A stretch of DNA of 41,090 nt from Kiritimatiellia bacterium. Lineage in GTDB: Bacteria > Verrucomicrobiota > Kiritimatiellia > JAAZAB01. The stretch's first letter is position 1. Each line of letters opens with the position of its first letter. Under the pieces are notes generated by a model, which was given only the letters and a program-made list of their open reading frames with translations, did not search any database and was not told where the DNA came from. The stretch lies in contig JAQUQV010000019.1 of NCBI GenBank assembly GCA_028715905.1, positions 1 to 41,090 on the forward strand, in the 5' to 3' direction. This document shows positions 60 to 39,919 of this stretch, in pieces. The position numbers and the translations under genes were made by a program.

Positions 60-2741
60 TCACTTTTCCGGTTTCACCGTTACTACAACCATCTTCTCCG
101 CGCATAGAATTTCCGCCGCCGTTTTGCGCACGTCGGCCGGAGTCAGTTCCGCGAGCCGTTTTTCGGTTTCAATTCCGTGGTTGTATCCCAGTCCGTAAAG
201 CTCGTTAAGCGCGCACTCCCGCGCGAGGGCGCCGTTGTCCTGTTGTTTTTGGCGTCCTTTCATAACGATCTGCAGCCGGGCGCGCTCAAATTCCCCGGCG
301 CGGATTCCCTTTTCGCCGATCCGGTTGATTTCCGTTGCAATCATTGCGCGCACTCTTTCGGCCTCTTCAACGCGCGTGCCGGAATAAACCGCCATGAGGC
401 CGCCGGCCAGTCCCGCCCGTTGATACGCGCCCGTGTAATAAGCCAGTCCTTTTTGATCGCGCACCCTGATCATCAGGTCGGAAGAAAGCCCGTTTAAGGC
501 CTGCAGGATGATGTTAAGCGCATCCATACGTCCGTCAACCAGGGCAAGGCCGGGCAGGCCGGCCAGTATGATTGTCTGTTCGCGCGGCGCGGCCAGATCA
601 ATTTTTTTACCGGAACGCGTTCCGGTTGCAACGTCGCCCGGCGTCGGCCGGTCCTGCCGCGGGCCGGCGGGCATTTCGCCGAAATATTTTTCCGCCAGTT
701 TTTCCGCTTTCTCCGCGGATATATCGCCGAAAACGGCAATGACGGTGTTGCCGCCCGCGGCGATTATTTTGTGCAGGCCGCGCAAATCTTCGCGGGCAAG
801 GGCCGTGACGCTTTCCGGCGTTCCCTCCGCGTTCAGGCGGTAAGGGTGCCCCGCGAAGAGCGCCCGGCGCATGGCCTCCTGCGCCAGGAACATGGGCGAT
901 TCGCGCTGTTGTTCAATCCCGGCAATCTGGACCGCCTTGCATTTGTTAATTTCCGCGTCCGGAAAATCCGGCCGGAGAAAACAATCCGCAAGAATATCCA
1001 TGAAAAGCTCAACATCTTTGGCGAAACAGCGCGCCTGCAGGCCGCAGGCGTTCATGCCGGAAAAGGGGGCGAGCGCCCCGCCCGTGTTTTCCGCGGCGGC
1101 GGAGATCTGGTCCCGGGAACGGAGCGCGGTTCCGCGCGTCAGCATTTCCGCCGTCAGGCAGGTGATGCCGCTGTTTTGTTCGTTTTCCAGGAGCAGTCCC
1201 CCCAACGATGCGGCGCAGATATGGACGAAAGGCAGGCGGTTGTCTTCCCGCGCCAGGAATGTCAGGCCGTTTGGAAATGTTTTTTTAACAATATTTATTT
1301 CCGCCTTAATTTCCGTTTCGCTTTTTTCCGCGGCGGCATTTGTAATAACGGGCGACAGAACGGCAATGGTCCGGTTGTTTTCAACGAGATATTTGCCGGC
1401 CGCCTCCTTCAGCGCGGCCGGGGTTACCGCGTCCAGGCGCTTGAGATAAATGTCAAAATAAAGCGGCGTGCCGGCGTAGAACTCGCCCGAGGCGAAAGTA
1501 TCGGCCTGGCCGCCGACTGTCTGGAATGCCAGGAAGGTATCGGCGGCGATTTTATTACGCGCCTTTTCCACTTCGGCTGCGGTGAAGGTGTTGGCCCGCC
1601 AGCCGGCGACTTCCTCCTCAATGGCCTTGAGAAGTTCCTCCTCCTTGGCCGGATCAAAATCGGCGTTAATTCCGAAAAGCCCGGGATCCTTCGGCGTCCA
1701 CGACCAGGCCGCGATATTAAAGGCAATTTTTTTGTTTTCCTTGATTTGCCGTTCCAGCCGCGAGCTTTTCCCCCCGCCGGCAATTACCGCGAGGACGTCC
1801 AGCGCGGGGGCGTCGGGATGGCTCAGGTTGACCGTATGCCAGGCGCAAGCCAGGCGGGCAATGTTGTATTTTCCGGTTTTACGGGCCGTGCGCTGGCCGG
1901 CCTGGATGGGCTCCGCGCCCTGAGCGGCCGGCGGCCGCGTGCGCCGCCCGGCTCCGGAAAAAAGATTTTCAATCTCGGCGCGGACCTCGTCCGCCGCGAT
2001 GTTTCCCGCGACGGCAACAATCATGTTGTCGGGGGTATAATGGCGCCGGAAAAACGCAACCAGATCGTCGCGGGTCAGGGTGTTGAATACGGGCTCCAGG
2101 CCGATTACCGGAAAACGGTAAGGATGCGCGTGGTAGGCGGTTTGAAATAAAAGCTTTGAAAGCGCCCGGCCGGGGTCGTCGTTGCCCATGGCCATTTCGC
2201 GCCGGACGACTTCCTTTTCGCGCCGCCATTCATTTTCCGGGAAAGATGCGTTCAAGACGGCGTCGGCCAGCACGTCCAGTCCGGTCCGCCAGCTTTCAGA
2301 AGGCATGACGACCCAGAAAACCGTCCGGTCAATGGAAGTATAGGCATTGATTGTTCCGCCGGCGTCGTCAATTTCCCGGGAAATATCCGCGGGTTTGCGC
2401 CTGGCGGTGCCCTTGAAAATCATATGTTCAATCAGGTGGGAAAGGCCGCCGCCGAGCAAGTCGCCTTCCTGGGCCGAACCGGCGCCGACCCAGATTTGAA
2501 TTGATACCAGGGGGGCGGAAAAATCCTCCTTGATTATGCACGCCAGGCCGTTATCCAGCTGGTGGCGCCGGACGCCGGCGGAGAGTCGTTCAATCCGCTG
2601 ATTAACTGGATTGCCATCGGCTTTTGCTGAAAGGCACGGCGAAAGCAAAATTATTCCGAAAGCAAAAAGAGCAAAGCTTTTTTTTACCGCAGAGGCGCAG
2701 AGATCGCAGAGGTAAATCACTTTTTGTTTTTTTCTGAACAT
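60..2741 (-). CDS. Two-domain M16 (pitrilysin-like) zinc metallopeptidase, exported
   Basis: An 893-residue protein with two M16 halves, as in zinc-dependent processing peptidases that degrade peptides in a closed chamber. The inverted zinc motif HLIEH lies at residues 102-106, and the downstream glutamate region (EKEVVRREM) follows about 70 residues later. The C-terminal half lacks HxxEH and is the usual non-catalytic partner. A hydrophobic segment at about residues 22-40 ending ACLSAKA-like suggests export to the periplasm. The start is uncertain: an AGGAG lies 14 bases from this ATG but only 4 bases from another ATG at 2751 that is out of frame. A GTG at codon 8 is an alternative. Residues 10-21 are encoded by a CTCTGCG repeat. 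It is the last gene of the nusA-pnp strand, 32 bases after the Minf_1886-like gene. Family call is firm; substrate is unknown. Confidence 0.9.
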   Translation of the reverse strand: MFRKKQKVIYLCDLCASAVKKSFALFAFGIILLSPCLSAKADGNPVNQRIERLSAGVRRHQLDNGLACIIKEDFSAPLVSIQIWVGAGSAQEGDLLGGGLSHLIEHMIFKGTARRKPADISREIDDAGGTINAYTSIDRTVFWVVMPSESWRTGLDVLADAVLNASFPENEWRREKEVVRREMAMGNDDPGRALSKLLFQTAYHAHPYRFPVIGLEPVFNTLTRDDLVAFFRRHYTPDNMIVAVAGNIAADEVRAEIENLFSGAGRRTRPPAAQGAEPIQAGQRTARKTGKYNIARLACAWHTVNLSHPDAPALDVLAVIAGGGKSSRLERQIKENKKIAFNIAAWSWTPKDPGLFGINADFDPAKEEELLKAIEEEVAGWRANTFTAAEVEKARNKIAADTFLAFQTVGGQADTFASGEFYAGTPLYFDIYLKRLDAVTPAALKEAAGKYLVENNRTIAVLSPVITNAAAEKSETEIKAEINIVKKTFPNGLTFLAREDNRLPFVHICAASLGGLLLENEQNSGITCLTAEMLTRGTALRSRDQISAAAENTGGALAPFSGMNACGLQARCFAKDVELFMDILADCFLRPDFPDAEINKCKAVQIAGIEQQRESPMFLAQEAMRRALFAGHPYRLNAEGTPESVTALAREDLRGLHKIIAAGGNTVIAVFGDISAEKAEKLAEKYFGEMPAGPRQDRPTPGDVATGTRSGKKIDLAAPREQTIILAGLPGLALVDGRMDALNIILQALNGLSSDLMIRVRDQKGLAYYTGAYQRAGLAGGLMAVYSGTRVEEAERVRAMIATEINRIGEKGIRAGEFERARLQIVMKGRQKQQDNGALARECALNELYGLGYNHGIETEKRLAELTPADVRKTAAEILCAEKMVVVTVKPEK
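2686..2713 (-). repeat. CTCTGCG-type tandem repeat inside the M16 N-terminus
   Basis: On the minus strand this reads as three CTCTGCG units with one or two variable bases between them, ending GCGGTAAAAAAA. The same pattern, also ending GCGGTAAAAAA, is found in the other orientation near 3830-3856 beside pnp. Here it is translated in frame as residues 10-21 of the M16 peptidase. Confidence 0.75.
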
Positions 2742-3214: not shown

Positions 3215-3285
3215 AACCAGGCGCAAAGGCACATGGGCAGAAGGCACAAAGGAAGAGCAAAGACAAAAAGACGCAAATGGATGAA
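3215..3285. repeat. GCACAAAGG/GGCAGAAG repeat cluster
   Basis: Repeated short units (AGGCGCAAAGGCACATGG, GCAGAAGGCACAAAGG, AGACGCAAATGG) fill the gap between the HIT gene and the Minf_1886-like gene. They match the family at 8653-8717 and, in reverse complement, the GTGCCTTT array at 38010-38049. Confidence 0.65.
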
Positions 3286-8293: not shown

Positions 8294-8644
8294 TCATTCC
8301 TTATCCAGTTTGTTCAAAATATCAAGAACGCGGTCGCCTTCCTCCAGCGAAGTATCCAGCTCAAAACTCAGGCGGGGCGTGTATTTCAACACCAGGTCGC
8401 GGTTGATCAGCCGCTGAAACTCAACCCGGCGGCGCTGCAACGCGGAAAGCATGCCGCGTCTTTCATCCTCATGGTTGCGGATGGAGACGTAAACGCGCGC
8501 CTCGCGCAGGTCGCGGCCGAGAAGCACGCGGGTAATGGTTGCCGAGGAAACGTCAAAGCGCTCATTCTGCATGACGCGGAACAACGCGTCGGCCAGCTCC
8601 CGCTTCAAGAGTTCGTTCAATCTGGTGATGCGGTCAACACTCAT
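8294..8644 (-). CDS. rbfA: Ribosome-binding factor A
   Basis: A 116-residue RbfA, a KH-type 30S maturation factor. Typical features are the start SVDRITRLNELLKREL, the central strand ATITRVLLGRDLREARVYVS, and the end RLSFELDTSLEEGDRVLDIL. It is placed between infB and truB as in most bacteria. I start it at the ATG at 8644; a GTG at 8662 inside a GTGCCTT repeat would add six residues that do not belong to the family. It is cytoplasmic. Confidence 0.95.
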   Translation of the reverse strand: MSVDRITRLNELLKRELADALFRVMQNERFDVSSATITRVLLGRDLREARVYVSIRNHEDERRGMLSALQRRRVEFQRLINRDLVLKYTPRLSFELDTSLEEGDRVLDILNKLDKE

Positions 8645-8652
8645 GATCTTTT

Positions 8653-8717
8653 TGGAAGGCACATAGGCAGAAGGCGCAAAGTTTCAGAAGGATTGCTTTT
8701 TTTACTTTGTGCCTTTC
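8653..8717. repeat. GGCACA/GGCAGAAGG repeat with inverted GTGCCTTT arm
   Basis: The infB-rbfA gap contains AAGGCACATAGGCAGAAGG and CGCAAAG on one side and CTTTGTGCCTTTC on the other. GAAGGCGCAAAG can pair with CTTTGTGCCTTT (two G-U type mismatches) to give a stem of about 12 bp. The repeats belong to the same family as those at 3215-3285 and 38010-38049. Confidence 0.6.
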
Positions 8718-10898
8718 TTACAATGTCTGGGGGACTTTTTCCAGCTCAAAAAATTCAATGGTATCGCCGGTCTGGAAATCCTTGAAATTTTCAAGCCGCA
8801 TGCCGCACTCCTGGCCCGCGCGCACCTCGTTTACCTGGTCCTGGAAACGTTTCAGGCTGAAAATGGCGCCCTCGTAGAGAACGTCGCCGCCGCGTTTTAC
8901 CCGCGCTCGGCAGCGCGCGCCGACCTTGCCGTCGGCAATAAGGCAGCCGGCGACCTGTCCCTTCCGGCTGATTTCAAACACCTGGCGCACCTCCGCCCGG
9001 CCGACGTATTTTTCTTTTGTTTCGGGCTGCAACATGCCGCTCATGGCTTCCTTGATCTGGTCAAAAATGTCGTAAATCACCCCGTAGAGGCGGATTTCAA
9101 CGCCCTCGTCCTTTTCGGCGCGGGCCACTCCCTCCTCCTTGCTGACATTGAAGCCGAAAACAATCGCGTTTGAAGCGCTGGCGAGCATGACGTCGTTTTC
9201 ATTGATGTTGCCGACCGCGGCGAGAATGACGGCCAGCGAGACTTTATCGCTTTTTATTTCGGCCAGCATTTTCTGGATCGCCTCAAGCGAGCCCTGCGTA
9301 TCGCACTTGAGGATCAGGCGCAGCTCAAGCCGCTGGTTGGCCGCCATGGCCGAAAAAACGGTTTCCAGCGAGATTTTTTTCTGGGGCGCCGTCTGCAGGC
9401 CGCGTATTTCCGTGCTGCGCTGCTCGGCGATCTCGCGCGCCATTTTATCGTTCGGCATCACCTGGAAAGGCTCGCCGGCCTTGGGAACCCCGGAGAGCCC
9501 CATGCACTTGATCGGTGTGGCGGGAACGGCCTTGCGCACCTTGATCCCGTGATCGTTGATCAGGGCCTTGACGCGTCCCCAGTAAGGACCGCAGAGGATT
9601 ATGTCGCCGACGCTCAACGTGCCGCGGGACACGAGGAGGTTGGCGGTGGGGCCCATTCCCGGTTCCATCCGGGCTTCAATCACGAACCCGCGCGCTCTGG
9701 CGCGCGGATTGGCCTTGAGTTCCAGGATTTCGGACTGCAGAATAATCATTTCCAGCAGGCGGTCAATATTCCTTCCGGTCAGGGCGCTGACCTCAACGCA
9801 GATGATGTCTCCGCCCCATTCTTCCGGCGCCAGGCCGATGGCCTGCAGTTGCCGCTTGACTTTATCGGTGTTGGCGCCGGGCAGATCAATTTTATTGATG
9901 GCCACCATGATCGTGGTCTTGGCGGCCTGGGCGTGTTTGATGGCTTCTTCGGTCTGGGGCATGACGCCGTCATCGGCGGCAATCACAATCACGGCAATAT
10001 CGGTCATGTTCGCGCCGCGCGCCCGCATGGCGGTGAAAGCGGCATGGCCCGGCGTATCAAGAAAGGTGATTTTTTTGCCCTGATGTTCGGCCGTATAAGC
10101 GCCCACGTGCTGGGTTATGCCGCCCGCTTCGCCTTTGGCGACGGCCGCGTTGCGGATGCGGTCAAGCAGGGAGGTTTTGCCGTGGTCAATGTGCCCCAGA
10201 AAAGTAACCACCGGCGGCCTGCTTTCCAGGTCTTCCGTCCGGTCCGCTTCATCTTCCTGGTCCAGGAACAATTGGCCCGACAGGGGTTTCGTTTCAACCG
10301 GCTTTTTTTCAAGCTCTATGGTAAAACCGTGTTTTTCAGCAATCTGCTGGGCGATTTTTATTTCCAGCCGCTCGTTGATGGCGGCCAGGATGCTCATCAT
10401 CATTAATTCGGCAATCAGCTGGTTGGGCTTCATGTCCATCCGCTCCGCCAGATCGCGCACGATGATGGGGCCGTGAAAAACAAGCGTCCTGCTTTTTGCG
10501 CTTGCCGCCGGTTTTTTGGGCGGGGCCGGTTTTAGGGCGGTTTTTTCGGAGGGGGGGATTGCGCCCGCTGTTTCCGCCTTTGAAGCGGGAGGTTGGGCGG
10601 CCCTGTCCGGTCCGGGCCGCGGCCGGGATTTATCTTCAACCAGATCCGCCGGTTTTTGCGCAGGGGTGGCAGTCTGCGGAGCGGGCGGGTTTTGGCTTGT
10701 TTTGGCCGGGGCGGGGCGGCGCGCGCTTTCCGCATCCGGCGCCGGTGTTTTTTTTGCGAAAATATTTCTGACTTTTGCGACGGCTTCTTCGTCAATTGAA
10801 CTGGAATGGCTCTTGAAGGCGACTCCGATTGACTGGAGGGCGGCCATCAGCTCCTTGTTGGCGACGTTCAGTTCTCTGGCTAAATCGTAAATACGCAT
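8718..10898 (-). CDS. infB: Translation initiation factor IF-2
   Basis: A 726-residue IF-2, the GTPase that delivers initiator tRNA to the ribosome. The N-terminal IF2_N fold (residues 1-50) is followed by a Pro/Ala/Lys-rich linker to about residue 135 and a second IF2_N-like segment. The GTPase domain has G1 GHIDHGKT (about 235-242, with Ile where Val is common), G3 DTPGH (about 281-285) and G4 NKID (about 335-338). Domains II, III and IV follow, ending [18 protein letters not shown]. The gene lies between nusA and rbfA. The 107-base gap to nusA holds a GC-rich inverted repeat (TGGCGCGGCCGGGCCGCCA) but no T-run. Confidence 0.98.
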
Positions 10899-28803: not shown

Positions 28804-29343
28804 ATGAAAAAGAAAAAACAAATTGTTAAAATCAGGCCGCCGGGGTTCAGCGACGCGGCGGCCATTTATGCCCTGCTCAAGGAACACCCGCGCGAGGTTT
28901 TACCCCGGTCCATGAGCGACATTATCCAGAACATTGACCGTTTTCTCGTGGCGGAGATCAATGGCAGGATAGCGGGAACCGCTTCCTGGCAGATTTTGCC
29001 GGAAATTGCCCGCTCGCCGAGCCATTCGGTGGAAATCAAATCAGTCGCGGTTTCAAAAGATTTTCAAAGACACGGGGTCGGCACGGCGCTGGTCCAAGCC
29101 ATGATCAAACACATCAGAACCTACCGGCCGGCGCAGATTGTGGTGCTCACCTTTTCCCCGGCTTATTTCCGGCGGTTCGGTTTCCGCGAAGTGCCCAAGG
29201 AAACGCTGATGCACAAGTTGTACATGGGCTGCATCAATTGCACCAAATACGCATCGCCCTTCACTTGCCCGGAAGTCGCCATGACGCTTACGGAAAGGCA
29301 GAAGGCAGAAGGCAGAATTCAGAAAACGGAAGAATCGGATTAA
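28804..29343 (+). CDS. GNAT acetyltransferase, short ArgA-like (amino-acid N-acetyltransferase)
   Basis: A 179-residue GNAT protein resembling stand-alone ArgA domains that make N-acetylglutamate in arginine synthesis. Typical marks are IRPPGFSDAAAIYALLKEHP, EVLPRSMSDIIQNIDRFLVAE, the acetyl-CoA loop SVAVSKDFQRHGVGTALVQ, FSPAYFRRFGF and the CINC...C end. These resemble the arginine-specific subgroup more than general GNATs. No arginine-pathway gene is next to it. The last 15 or so residues (ERQKAEGRIQKTEESD) come from GGCAGAA heptamer repeats and are not part of the family, so the original stop was probably earlier. It is cytoplasmic. Confidence 0.8.
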   Translation: MKKKKQIVKIRPPGFSDAAAIYALLKEHPREVLPRSMSDIIQNIDRFLVAEINGRIAGTASWQILPEIARSPSHSVEIKSVAVSKDFQRHGVGTALVQAMIKHIRTYRPAQIVVLTFSPAYFRRFGFREVPKETLMHKLYMGCINCTKYASPFTCPEVAMTLTERQKAEGRIQKTEESD

Positions 29344-29391
29344 TACATCCGTCTTTTCTTTCTGCCTTCTTAATTCTGCCTTCTGCCTTTC
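29293..29391. terminator. Repeat-built hairpin between convergent genes
   Basis: Three GGCAGAA heptamers (29297-29317) on the left face TTCTGCC heptamers on the right (29360-29366, 29374-29380 and 29381-29387). The flanking bases AGAAAACGG and CCGTCTTTTCT also pair, so the whole segment can fold into one long imperfect stem. It lies exactly between two convergent stop codons (29343 and 29395), a good position for a two-way terminator. The left arm is translated as the C-terminus of the acetyltransferase. Confidence 0.6.
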
Positions 29392-36384: not shown

Positions 36385-37956
36385 ATGGCTTTTAATTACG
36401 CACAGAAGCTTAACAAGCTGGAAGGAATCGTCGAAAGCAAAACGACGGGGCGTTTCAGTATTGTGTGGAGCGTCGTGCTTGCCATCCTGCGATCCCGTTA
36501 TTTCCTGATTTCCCTCCTTATCTATACGTTTTTGCTCATGATTCTTGGCGGGGTGGTGATATCGCATTATGTCATCACCAAAGGCACTTTTGAAGAAGGG
36601 CAGGTGCTCGTATTGCCGGACGGCGCCGGCGGTCCGCCCCCGCCGGGTCCGCGCGGCGCTCCCCAGGCCTCGGCCCAGGCGGCCGCCCAGCAGACCAGGT
36701 CGGTGTCCGTTGCCGTGCAGTCCATGTCCAGCCGCACAGCGGCGAAAACGGCCGCGCAAAGGTTGACCGTCAGCGCCCCTTCTGATTTTGTCCGCGCGCC
36801 GGCCCCGGTTGTGGCGCCCCATGTGCAGATGTCGGAGGTTAAAGTTGATACCCAGATGGCCAAAAGCATTGCCGCGGCCAATATACAGCGTTTGCAGGGC
36901 GTGCGCGACTTCCAGAAGGGATGGGGCGTAACCATGAGCGGCGGCGGCCGCGGCGGTATGGGCGGCGGGGGTAGCCGCGGGGGCGGGGGCGGCGGCGGGA
37001 TCGGCGGGGTCGGCCGGGCCGGAACATATCACGGCGTGCGCGCCAAATTCACCATCTTCCAGGCCAAATATCAGGACGGCGACTGGGACTGCAACGGAGG
37101 CAGAGGTACCAATCTCTGGGACCCGAGCGCGCTCAAAAATCTCATGTTCCAGATCAGGCAGTGGTCCCGCGACCGGATTGACGCCCAGGTTACCCCGGCC
37201 GTGCTTGATGTCGGCACGGATGCCATTTTCACGCTTAAACCCCCCTTTATCTATCTGACCGGCCACAAGGATTTTCATTTCCTTGACCGGGAAGTGAAAA
37301 ACCTGCGCGATTACCTGACCCTGGGCGGGGCGGTCTGGGCCGATAGTGCCCTGGCCGGCCGCCGTTCGCGTTTTGACGTGGCCTTTCGCCGCGAGATAAG
37401 AAGAGTTCTGCCGGACCGCGATTTTGAAATCGTGCCGCCCGACCACGAGATGTTCAACACTTTCTTTGCCAACGTGGACCTGCCCTCCGGAATAAATTTT
37501 TATCAGGAGCCGCTTGAAATCATCAATATCGGCGGCGAACTGGCCGTGCTTTACTCGCTGAACGGTTACGGTCATTTCTGGGAGACGCGCCTGAACCGCG
37601 AAGGCAACATTGAGTGGAAGCGCGTCAATCTCGGGGATCCCGGCAACCCGCAATGGCGCTGGGTCCACGGACCGCACCTTTATCCGCCGCGCACGGAAAG
37701 CGGGGTTATCTACCGCAATATCACCGATGCGACCGTGCGCGATAATTACAAGTTCGGAATCAATGTGGTGGTGCACCTGCTGACCCGTTATCAGAAGCAT
37801 TTCCGTTTCCTGCCCAAGGAACTGCCCCAGCTGGAGGGCATGAGAAAGCCGGTCAAGAAGGCGCCGGAGGAACAACAGCTTGAAGAAGAGCCCGGGAAAA
37901 CCGCCCGGCCAAAAGAGCAGACCAATCAGCCGCCGGGCAAGCAAGACGGAAAGTAA
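36385..37956 (+). CDS. Membrane-anchored DUF4159 protein with TonB-like layout
   Basis: A 523-residue protein. A cytoplasmic N-terminus is followed by one membrane span (about 39-63). A periplasmic linker (about 64-215) is rich in Pro, Ala and then Gly, with a run of Gly/Arg repeats at 186-212. The C-terminal domain (about 219-470) matches DUF4159: GDWDCNGGRGTNLW, PPFIYLTGHKDFHFLDREV, YLTLGGAVWADSAL, FRREIRRVLPDRDFEIVPPD and FGINVVVHLLTRYQ. A charged Pro-rich tail ends the protein. The order membrane span, flexible linker, folded end is that of TonB and TolA. It follows exbB-exbD-exbD directly. The role of DUF4159 is not established. Confidence 0.8.
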   Translation: MAFNYAQKLNKLEGIVESKTTGRFSIVWSVVLAILRSRYFLISLLIYTFLLMILGGVVISHYVITKGTFEEGQVLVLPDGAGGPPPPGPRGAPQASAQAAAQQTRSVSVAVQSMSSRTAAKTAAQRLTVSAPSDFVRAPAPVVAPHVQMSEVKVDTQMAKSIAAANIQRLQGVRDFQKGWGVTMSGGGRGGMGGGGSRGGGGGGGIGGVGRAGTYHGVRAKFTIFQAKYQDGDWDCNGGRGTNLWDPSALKNLMFQIRQWSRDRIDAQVTPAVLDVGTDAIFTLKPPFIYLTGHKDFHFLDREVKNLRDYLTLGGAVWADSALAGRRSRFDVAFRREIRRVLPDRDFEIVPPDHEMFNTFFANVDLPSGINFYQEPLEIINIGGELAVLYSLNGYGHFWETRLNREGNIEWKRVNLGDPGNPQWRWVHGPHLYPPRTESGVIYRNITDATVRDNYKFGINVVVHLLTRYQKHFRFLPKELPQLEGMRKPVKKAPEEQQLEEEPGKTARPKEQTNQPPGKQDGK

Positions 37957-37960
37957 TGCA

Positions 37961-39790
37961 ATGAAAGAAGCCAGAAGTCAGAAGTCAGAAGTTAGAACCA
38001 ACGATTTTTGTGCCTTTGTGCCTTTGTGCCTTTGTGCCTTTGTGCCTTTCTTAATGGCCTTTGCGCCCTTCTCCGTTTCGGCGCAGGCGCCGTTGCCGGT
38101 GGGCGATGAAATGTTGTCCAACAGCGCCATGGGCGAAGTGGCCGTTCCGCTCGCCAACTTGTGGGACGGAGTGGACAAGGATAACAACCTCTGCGTTCCG
38201 GTCATGCGCGGCCTGGTTCTCAACGACGTCGGCAAAATGGTTGATACGCCGTTGCCTTCCTATCCCAATTTTATTGACATGAACGACGACGGCCTGCCCG
38301 ACTTGGTGGTGGCCGATACCCAGGGGTTCGTCTGGATTTATGCTAATTCCGGCGAGAAGGGGAAACCGAAATTCACCGCCGGCAAATTCGTGCCCACCTT
38401 CATCGGCTGGGTTTCCAGGATCTATGTCTGCGACTGGGACGGCGACGGCGATAACGATATTGTTGTCGGCACGTTTTACGGCGATGTCGTCATTCTGGAG
38501 AATTTCGGCAGTAAAAAAGAATGGCGGTTCACCCGCAAGATGGGCGTGCCGCGTTACGTTGATCCGCAATTTACGGTGGATGATCCCCAGGAACGGCTGC
38601 GGCAGATCATGATCGGAAAAATGCCCCTGATAAAAGGAAATTACCTGGCCCCGTGGGTGTGCGACTGGAACAAGGACGGCAAGCCCGACCTCCTGCTCGG
38701 CGAGGGCACTTATTCGGCCAACAGCGTGCGCCTCTTTGTCAATACCGGTTCGCGCATGAAACCGGTCTTCAGCGAAGACCGCGAATTTTATCTTGCCTAC
38801 GGCGAGGGCTTTGAACAACTTACCCCCTCGGTGGTGGATTACAACGGCGACGGCCTTGACGACCTGATCGTTGGCACGCGCACCGGCCATATCCGGCTCC
38901 ACAAGGGCACGAAAGCGGCCGTTGAAGAAAAGGATTTTATCGCGGCTATGAAGGGAAACCTCGCCCCGGCCATCCTGGAATATGAAAGCAATCTGAACAT
39001 AGGCGGCCGGGAAATTTTTGACAAAATGTCGGTGGTTTATCCCTGCGATTGGAATGAGGACGGTCTTTTTGACCTTGTGCTGGGGCACACCAGCGGCCGG
39101 GTCTACATCGCCCTCAACAAGGGCTCCAAAGCCAATCCGGATTTTCCTTCCGCCGAGCCGGTCAAGGGCGCCGACGTGGAAAAGGACCTGCTGGCGCCGG
39201 ATGATTGGATGAACGGCGTTATCCGCGTCTGGTGGCATAACTTTATCGGCGGATTCTGCAACACGGCCTCTCTGCTGACCTGTGAAAAGGAGGTTATGCT
39301 GAAGCCGTCCGGCTCGCCGCTTGCCGTGCCGATCCGGCCGGTAACCGGCAATTATTTCCTGTACTACCGCTACGTTAATGATTACCAGGGCTGGATGCGC
39401 AACCAACTCGCCTATGTGAAAGACATCCCCGGCGTCAATACTGAAAACGTTGTCGGCGGACGACTCATCACCCCGAATCAGTCCTTTCCCCTGCGCCTCG
39501 GCAAAAAATACGAGCTTTCATTCTCCTCCATTCTCCAGGGCAAGCCCGCGCTCTGGAAAGTCTGGACACATGAACCGACGGCGCCGCCCTCGGATATAGC
39601 GCCGCCGCCGCTCGTGATTCAGGAGGCCAGCGGGATAATTCCGCCTTCATCTTCCTGGGTCAAGCGCAACTACAAGTTCAAATGCCCGAGCGTTTTTCAA
39701 ACCAATTATAATTATCGTTTGATTTTCCGCATGCCGCCGGGCGACTGCCAGTTTCTCTTGGACGGCATCAGCCTGAAGGAAATTCCATAA
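37961..39790 (+). CDS. Secreted FG-GAP/VCBS-repeat protein
   Basis: A 609-residue exported protein with five FG-GAP/VCBS repeats, at about residues 106-131, 157-182, 234-264, 292-316 and 358-384. The repeats carry calcium-type DxDxDG loops: DMNDDGLPDL, DWDGDGDNDI, DWNKDGKPDL, DYNGDGLDDL and DWNEDGLFDL. Such repeats fold as beta-propeller blades and often bind ligands at the cell surface. Residues 430-609 form a further domain I do not recognise. The start is four bases after the DUF4159 stop, so the two are coupled. The signal peptide (about 1-43, ending SVSAQA) is built from tandem repeats (37967-38049), which is unusual. Confidence 0.85.
   Translation: MKEARSQKSEVRTNDFCAFVPLCLCAFVPFLMAFAPFSVSAQAPLPVGDEMLSNSAMGEVAVPLANLWDGVDKDNNLCVPVMRGLVLNDVGKMVDTPLPSYPNFIDMNDDGLPDLVVADTQGFVWIYANSGEKGKPKFTAGKFVPTFIGWVSRIYVCDWDGDGDNDIVVGTFYGDVVILENFGSKKEWRFTRKMGVPRYVDPQFTVDDPQERLRQIMIGKMPLIKGNYLAPWVCDWNKDGKPDLLLGEGTYSANSVRLFVNTGSRMKPVFSEDREFYLAYGEGFEQLTPSVVDYNGDGLDDLIVGTRTGHIRLHKGTKAAVEEKDFIAAMKGNLAPAILEYESNLNIGGREIFDKMSVVYPCDWNEDGLFDLVLGHTSGRVYIALNKGSKANPDFPSAEPVKGADVEKDLLAPDDWMNGVIRVWWHNFIGGFCNTASLLTCEKEVMLKPSGSPLAVPIRPVTGNYFLYYRYVNDYQGWMRNQLAYVKDIPGVNTENVVGGRLITPNQSFPLRLGKKYELSFSSILQGKPALWKVWTHEPTAPPSDIAPPPLVIQEASGIIPPSSSWVKRNYKFKCPSVFQTNYNYRLIFRMPPGDCQFLLDGISLKEIP
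37967..38049. repeat. GAAGTCA heptamers and GTGCCTTT octamers inside a signal-peptide coding region
   Basis: Four heptamers (GAAGCCA, GAAGTCA, GAAGTCA, GAAGTTA) occupy 37967-37994. Five exact GTGCCTTT octamers occupy 38010-38049. They encode the basic N-terminus and the hydrophobic CAFVPLCLCAFVPF core of the FG-GAP protein's signal peptide. Confidence 0.85.
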
Positions 39791-39795
39791 GAGAG

Positions 39796-39904
39796 CAGTC
39801 AGAAGCCAGAAGTCAGTATTCAGAATGAAGAAAATTGAATTCAGATTCAGAACTCCTGACTTCTGACTCCTGACTTCTGACTACTGACTACTGACTACTG
39901 ACTA
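39796..39904. repeat. CTGACTT/CTGACTA heptamer array with inverted arm
   Basis: Seven CTGACTN heptamers (39856-39904: CTGACTT, CTGACTC, CTGACTT and four CTGACTA) fill the gap before dnaE. Upstream, GTCAGAAGCCAGAAGTCAG (39798-39816) is inverted and can pair with them into a long stem. The array may end the upstream transcript. No promoter for dnaE is evident. Confidence 0.75.
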
Positions 39905-39919
39905 CTGGATTCTAGCGCC

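Follow-up and report, generated by a model that had tools for sequence, protein, structure and literature searches.

We consider it probable that the signal peptide of an FG-GAP repeat protein of a Kiritimatiellia bacterium is a derived, lineage-specific one, and that it exemplifies how intergenic repeats have repeatedly been captured as export signals. The gene lies at 37961..39790 on the plus strand of the window, as we call the whole 41,090-nt stretch of DNA that was analysed, and encodes 609 amino acids without an internal stop (Pfam FG-GAP_3, E 1.1e-23). That repeats can occupy a leader peptide and that repeat elements can be read in frame is already known; in the open-access papers searched, we found no report of intergenic two-arm repeats being used recurrently, and across a family, as export signals. 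The gain of export signals in bacteria is otherwise mostly visible as an outcome only. Here the birth of signal peptides becomes directly testable, with the raw material in view and both the upstream and the captured state present at one orthologous locus. New secretion tags may be readily drawn from junk-like intergenic repeats.

The ATG at 37961 stands 4 nt 3' of the stop codon of a gene with a DUF4159 domain (36385..37956, plus strand; Pfam PF13709, E 7.5e-28), which served as the marker of orthologous position. Read from this ATG, the N-terminus of the FG-GAP protein is MKEARSQKSEVRTNDFCAFVPLCLCAFVPFLMAFAPFSVSAQAPLP. Four heptamers, AGAAGCC AGAAGTC AGAAGTC AGAAGTT (37966..37993, plus strand), form a purine-rich arm that codes for ARSQKSEV of the n-region, and five perfect octamers TTTGTGCC (written GTGCCTTT in the earlier note; 38007..38046, plus strand) form a pyrimidine-rich arm that codes for FCAFVPLCLCAFVP of the h-region. 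The next eight nucleotides, TTTCTTAA (38047..38054, plus strand), resemble the outermost part of pyrimidine arms found elsewhere (TTTGTGCCTTTCTTxx); the same ending occurs in the arms at 8698-8721 of the window and at loci L090 and L105, and in contig L117 of an NPL-UPA2 bacterium. From the codon listing and the orthologue alignment, the non-repeat rest of the signal peptide is MAFAPFSVSA^QA, with a cleavage site of the AXA type (38054..38089, plus strand). Within the signal peptide the non-repetitive part is the c-region (SVSA^QA) only, and the mature protein is likewise non-repetitive.

TRF reported AGAAGTC in 4.6 copies at 37966-37997 (score 50) and TTTGTGCC in 5.4 copies with 100% matches at 38007-38049 (score 86). 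Two-unit matches to the octamer numbered 10 in the window against a mean of 0.7 in shuffled sequences, and those to the heptamer 20 against 1.4, both counts lying above 100 of 100 shuffles. These results bear out the earlier note, which had derived the basic part of the signal peptide from heptamers and its hydrophobic core from five octamers, save that the part made of heptamers is only weakly basic: the n-region has a net charge of +1 ahead of the most hydrophobic stretch (0 to +3 in the orthologues). That 12-residue stretch is the array-coded core itself, with a Kyte-Doolittle hydropathy of 2.59 (orthologues, 1.69-2.80), and small residues occupy positions -3 and -1 of the cleavage site, whether this is SVSA^QA or SAQA^PL. 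Judged by charge, hydrophobic core and cleavage site, the N-terminus is a plausible Sec signal peptide, and the protein is presumably exported.

The array might instead be an untranslated 5' leader, translation starting from an ATG at 38054 and the N-terminal reading being spurious, which we hold to be improbable. In many genes the pyrimidine arm does end 5-15 nt 5' of the start codon; the ATG at 38054 comes 7 nt after the last octamer, directly after the array, and codon scoring alone also chooses it. However, a start at 38054 leaves MAFAPFSVSA, a presequence of about 10-12 residues that lacks basic residues and reaches a hydropathy of 1.02 over 12 residues, whereas six of six orthologues have signal peptides. 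Moreover, the ATG at 37961 follows close behind the DUF4159 stop, as do several orthologue starts, and in several sister cases a start codon is altogether absent between array and cleavage site. Because all the orthologues have signal peptides, translation more probably begins at 37961 than at 38054. The short presequence of low hydropathy left by 38054 also weakens a possibility that the earlier note had held up against a repeat-derived signal, namely that the true start is downstream of the repeat. Beside such arrays, automatic start-site calls cannot be relied upon, whichever way they fall.

A protein search in 97 related genomes, with the N-termini read from the DNA, recovered near full-length orthologues from six members of the same family (G003-G008; 52-63% identity). 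Their N-termini are ordinary and mutually different, for example MKKHINSMGRLVPPCVIMALMAALALPWLALAQ in G006, MKGCMHSLNWSVPLRLALAVASVLPWLAFGQ in G007 and MIPSMKHYGKSLGQGSILLGMLLFYPMFAAAQ in G003, and neither the octamers nor AGAAGTC heptamers occur at any of the six. The comparison of orthologue N-termini that the earlier note had proposed turned up, among these six relatives, none with the same amino acids in unrelated codons. In four of the six (G004-G007), the C-terminus of the DUF4159 protein can be made out immediately 5' of the FG-GAP gene, whose position is therefore orthologous. The window protein aligns with the orthologues over its c-region and the beginning of the mature part, and its n- and h-regions fall at the arrays. 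Since the six same-family orthologues have ordinary signal peptides without arrays, parsimony suggests that the repeat-coded state is the derived one and arose in the window's lineage.

The genome is a 2.67 Mb draft in 141 contigs, and the loci surveyed are places found in it and its relatives by pattern search, which were fetched and then compared with predicted genes. Two and a half octamers (at most 2 mismatches) matched the genome 15 times and the degenerate heptamer 97 times, the reversed control giving 0 in either case. The arrays are mostly intergenic, and they often touch the stop codon of one gene or end 5-15 nt short of the next gene's start. Their purine-rich arm consists of AGAAGTC, AGAAGGC or GGCACAAA units, and a pyrimidine-rich arm lies 3' of it: among neighbours within 250 nt, the order was purine then pyrimidine in 22 instances and the reverse in 0 (p 5e-7). 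Within the window, too, such repeats lie between genes, as the earlier note had said. We found a heptamer element at 39794..39913 (purine arm 39794-39821, pyrimidine arm 39851-39913; fold z -4.27), an AGAAGGC-type heptamer element at the ends of two convergent genes (29299..29384), an octamer element between two genes, again with purine then pyrimidine arm (8658..8721; fold z -1.13), and a further intergenic repeat at 3220-3235. When five intergenic elements with matching arms were folded as RNA, four gave strong structures (z -4.3 to -7.0) and one a weak structure (-1.1). In the element at the FG-GAP gene (37955-38062) the two arms are not complementary and the RNA fold has a z of +0.85. Because its arms are neither complementary nor hairpin-forming, this heptamer-octamer element either is a hybrid or came about in two events. 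An Rfam scan of the window returned no match to a known RNA family.

The pyrimidine strands of the octamer, GCCTTCT and CATTCTG are stop-free in any frame, reading VPLCLCAF, LPSAFCL and ILHSAFC, and for TTTGTGCC, GCCTTCT and CATTCTG units alike the arm reads hydrophobic in all three frames; GACTTCT contains a stop (TGA) in every frame. The captured arrays that we found are of stop-free unit types. Because the octamer and the heptamers involved are stop-free on the strand used and their lengths are not multiples of 3, the same periodic peptide results in any frame. A purine-rich 5' arm would yield a hydrophilic, mildly basic peptide and a pyrimidine-rich 3' arm a hydrophobic one, so that arms in this order would be read as an n-region and then an h-region, a simple reason why such repeats are fit to be a source of signals. 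At the boundary of the DUF4159 and FG-GAP genes, we suggest, an intergenic repeat came to be part of the reading frame, placed after the start codon and ahead of the former cleavage-site region. The earlier note had left the choice between expansion of the repeat into the gene and capture of the repeat by it. Since the units form intergenic elements with both arms at gene boundaries, that choice can be narrowed: capture of a boundary element, followed by unit turnover, fits best. More tentatively, and with slightly less than even confidence, we suggest that the two-arm elements may act in evolution as a portable signal-peptide cassette, providing n- and h-region in either orientation and any frame and kept by selection in exported proteins and pilins. 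Orientation and frame would not matter because the purine arm always comes first on either strand and the translatable units are stop-free and alike in all frames.

The FG-GAP gene is not alone in this. Other repeat-derived signal peptides, for which the earlier note had advised a genome-wide search, are present in the window's genome and in sister genera; in about a dozen further genes of the family the pyrimidine arm forms a signal peptide, a lipoprotein signal or a prepilin leader. In the window's genome, a lipoprotein on contig C93, MKFLKYFCLLPSAFCLLLLAGC, takes its N-terminus from a pyrimidine arm after an upstream ATG. Four prepilins whose N-terminus is built in the same way (contigs C87, C2, C3 and C36) were confirmed by Pfam (N_methyl and GFxxxE models), and a TadE-like protein of C23 was judged by motif only. 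The C36 prepilin, MTNLKAEVRDQRSEIRRKNFCLLPSAFPSG^FTLIEL, has the same two-part build as the FG-GAP protein. In the window itself, the gene of a probably exported M16 peptidase (60-2741, minus strand) carries CTCTGCG-type octamers in its first residues (2688-2741; TRF 2688-2712), and its start region translates as MFRKKQKVIYLCDLCASAVKKSFALFAFGIILLSPCLSAKADG. Heptamer array matches number 58-192 in the sister genomes G001, G005, G006 and G009. Array-coded signals of sister genomes include MSTKFRLYFCVSAFCILHSTFLFAQ in G006 and MSPCFLRKGWTTRAGILHSAFCILNSAFFLLTASAGWA in G006 with its G005 orthologue; those of the Sec type occur in G005, G006 and G008, with an M16 peptidase among them in all three. 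In seven cases (L097, L120, L127, L146, L175, L208 and L211) no ATG, GTG or TTG separates the array from the cleavage or lipobox region, and the array must therefore be translated if the protein is exported.

The sampled loci include 40 pyrimidine arms that precede a gene in sense orientation. Of these 40 arms, 9 have to be translated; the products are exported or pilin-like in 9 of 9, against 7 of the 31 others (Fisher p 4e-5), the classes having been assigned, without blinding, from hydropathy and visual inspection. Most simply, only proteins that are exported or pilin-like would tolerate, or profit from, a hydrophobic insert at the N-terminus. Several candidates were rejected as captures, their own start lying downstream of the array: L089, L131, L225, the XerC-like gene of L169, the ferredoxin-like gene of L176 and the gene at 8294-8644 of the window.

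Two variants of signal coding were observed in passing. The M16 peptidase has CTCTGCG-type octamers in the window and CATTCTG heptamers in the signal peptides of its orthologues in G005, G006 and G008. In the start regions at L234, L236 and L190, a CGTCGTCTGT-like repeat codes for part of a presequence (RRLSSVVCRLL) and precedes CATTCTG heptamers or a prepilin site.

Different evolutionary states can be seen at single loci. At a lipoprotein locus the array lies within the signal in G000 and G008 and upstream of the start in G005, and G007 has no array; G000 and G008 have MKFLKYF in common and the same heptamer register, the unit being CTTCTGC versus CATTCTG/CATTCTT. For a protein marked by VVNGHFSD, there is a difference of exactly 7 nt, one heptamer, between the G005 and G006 arrays; the other indels keep the frame and the mature part is closely similar. 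This difference demonstrates that units turn over within a repeat-coded signal. Such turnover speaks for an origin in place, through slippage of a chance short repeat in an existing signal peptide and unlinked to the intergenic elements. Nevertheless, both unit sequences and the TTTCTT ending recur at dozens of intergenic places in the genome, and few other genomes of the class have the octamer array, so we regard an origin in place as very unlikely and prefer capture of the intergenic element.

Compatible with such capture is the idea that the repeat-coded signal is a contingency locus, at which slippage of octamers or heptamers would switch the protein on and off; this we find doubtful, if less so than the other alternatives. 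In simulated variants of either window array, a gain or loss of 1 or 2 units led to a stop after 13-62 codons and three units restored the frame, and the orthologous repeat-coded signals of G005 and G006 stand one heptamer apart in front of closely similar mature parts. Yet five octamers and four imperfect heptamers are short for rapid slippage, no copy-number variants of the window gene were seen, its genus being represented by this one genome among the relatives listed, and most arrays lie between genes, where frame is immaterial. By analogy with known switches, phase-variable expression of the FG-GAP gene through slippage is possible.

Among those switches, the opa genes of Neisseria have CTCTT coding repeats in the leader peptide (PMC3960869), and there as here a tandem repeat whose unit length is not divisible by 3 codes for leader sequence, unit changes shifting the frame. 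The opa repeats are those of a single gene family, in which they form a known switch (PMC3960869); here, unlike opa, two units that are also intergenic serve unrelated exported proteins, and any switching is hypothetical. Helicobacter pylori oipA has CT repeats near the gene start, similarly a slippage-prone repeat in the 5' region, which controls the frame of an outer-membrane protein gene; the unit is a dinucleotide, and the repeat is a known phase switch, not an intergenic element (PMC10564699). Rickettsia palindromic elements (RPE), palindromes of about 150 bp inserted in unrelated genes, share with our arrays their presence in coding and non-coding places and their being read in frame as an added peptide (PMC10969869). 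Unlike RPE, arrays of 7-8 bp units at gene starts here supply an export signal; the window element, with its z of +0.85, does not fold as a palindrome.

The TAACTGA heptamer repeats of Beggiatoaceae, Cyanobacteria and Bacteroidetes are, like ours, direct heptamer repeats, mostly intergenic just 5' of starts and patchy across phyla, a few overlapping gene edges (PMC4679880). The units here, AGAAGTC/AGAAGGC and TTTGTGCC, are different from TAACTGA, whose repeats are almost only direct, without paired arms, and are described with no mention of signal peptides (PMC4679880). Signal peptide gain and loss in Enterobacterales involves a whole N-terminal segment inserted between orthologues (PMC5952966), and the FG-GAP signal likewise would come from an inserted N-terminal segment. 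The Enterobacterales study names no repeat as the source (PMC5952966), whereas here the source of the new DNA is readable.

Purine arms, too, were seen within genes. They form C-terminal tails (such as RHKGTEAEGTK) at L094 551-589 and L095 2036-2059, where they end in AAAGTGA, the stop of one gene with a possible GTG start of the next. Genes on separate contigs, L129 1240-1815 (minus strand), L138 2-472 (minus strand) and L139 1287-3032 (plus strand), have a common N-terminus, MIRLGGA or MICLGGA, and purine-heptamer peptides (QKAEGRRRKAE), and constitute a repeated gene family. An NAD-dependent epimerase, L107 1101-2069 (minus strand), begins with MKSEVRSQKPEF from AGAAGTC heptamers and is a cytosolic protein with a captured purine arm. 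At L128 433-526, an AGAAGGC array of over 90 bp overlaps a predicted gene.

The repeats are narrowly distributed. The octamer as a 24-mer (at most 1 mismatch) occurred in 4 of 288 genomes of the class, and of 388 genomes of the phylum 4 had the CTTCTGC triple in exact form, the window's genome being an outlier; these counts rule out a class-wide trait. A combined CTGCMTT pattern was present in 9 of 224 class genomes; only members of the window's family had more than 2 copies. A phage origin of the octamer was rejected, the exact 24-mer being absent from IMG/VR. An exact match to the octamer with its TTTCTT ending came from a single further named genome, that of NPL-UPA2 bacterium Unc8. This organism belongs to a different candidate phylum, and in it the octamer adjoins GACTTCT heptamers in one intergenic region (L117 901-1113). 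The match in Unc8 recalls the patchy, possibly horizontal, spread of the TAACTGA heptamers (PMC4679880).
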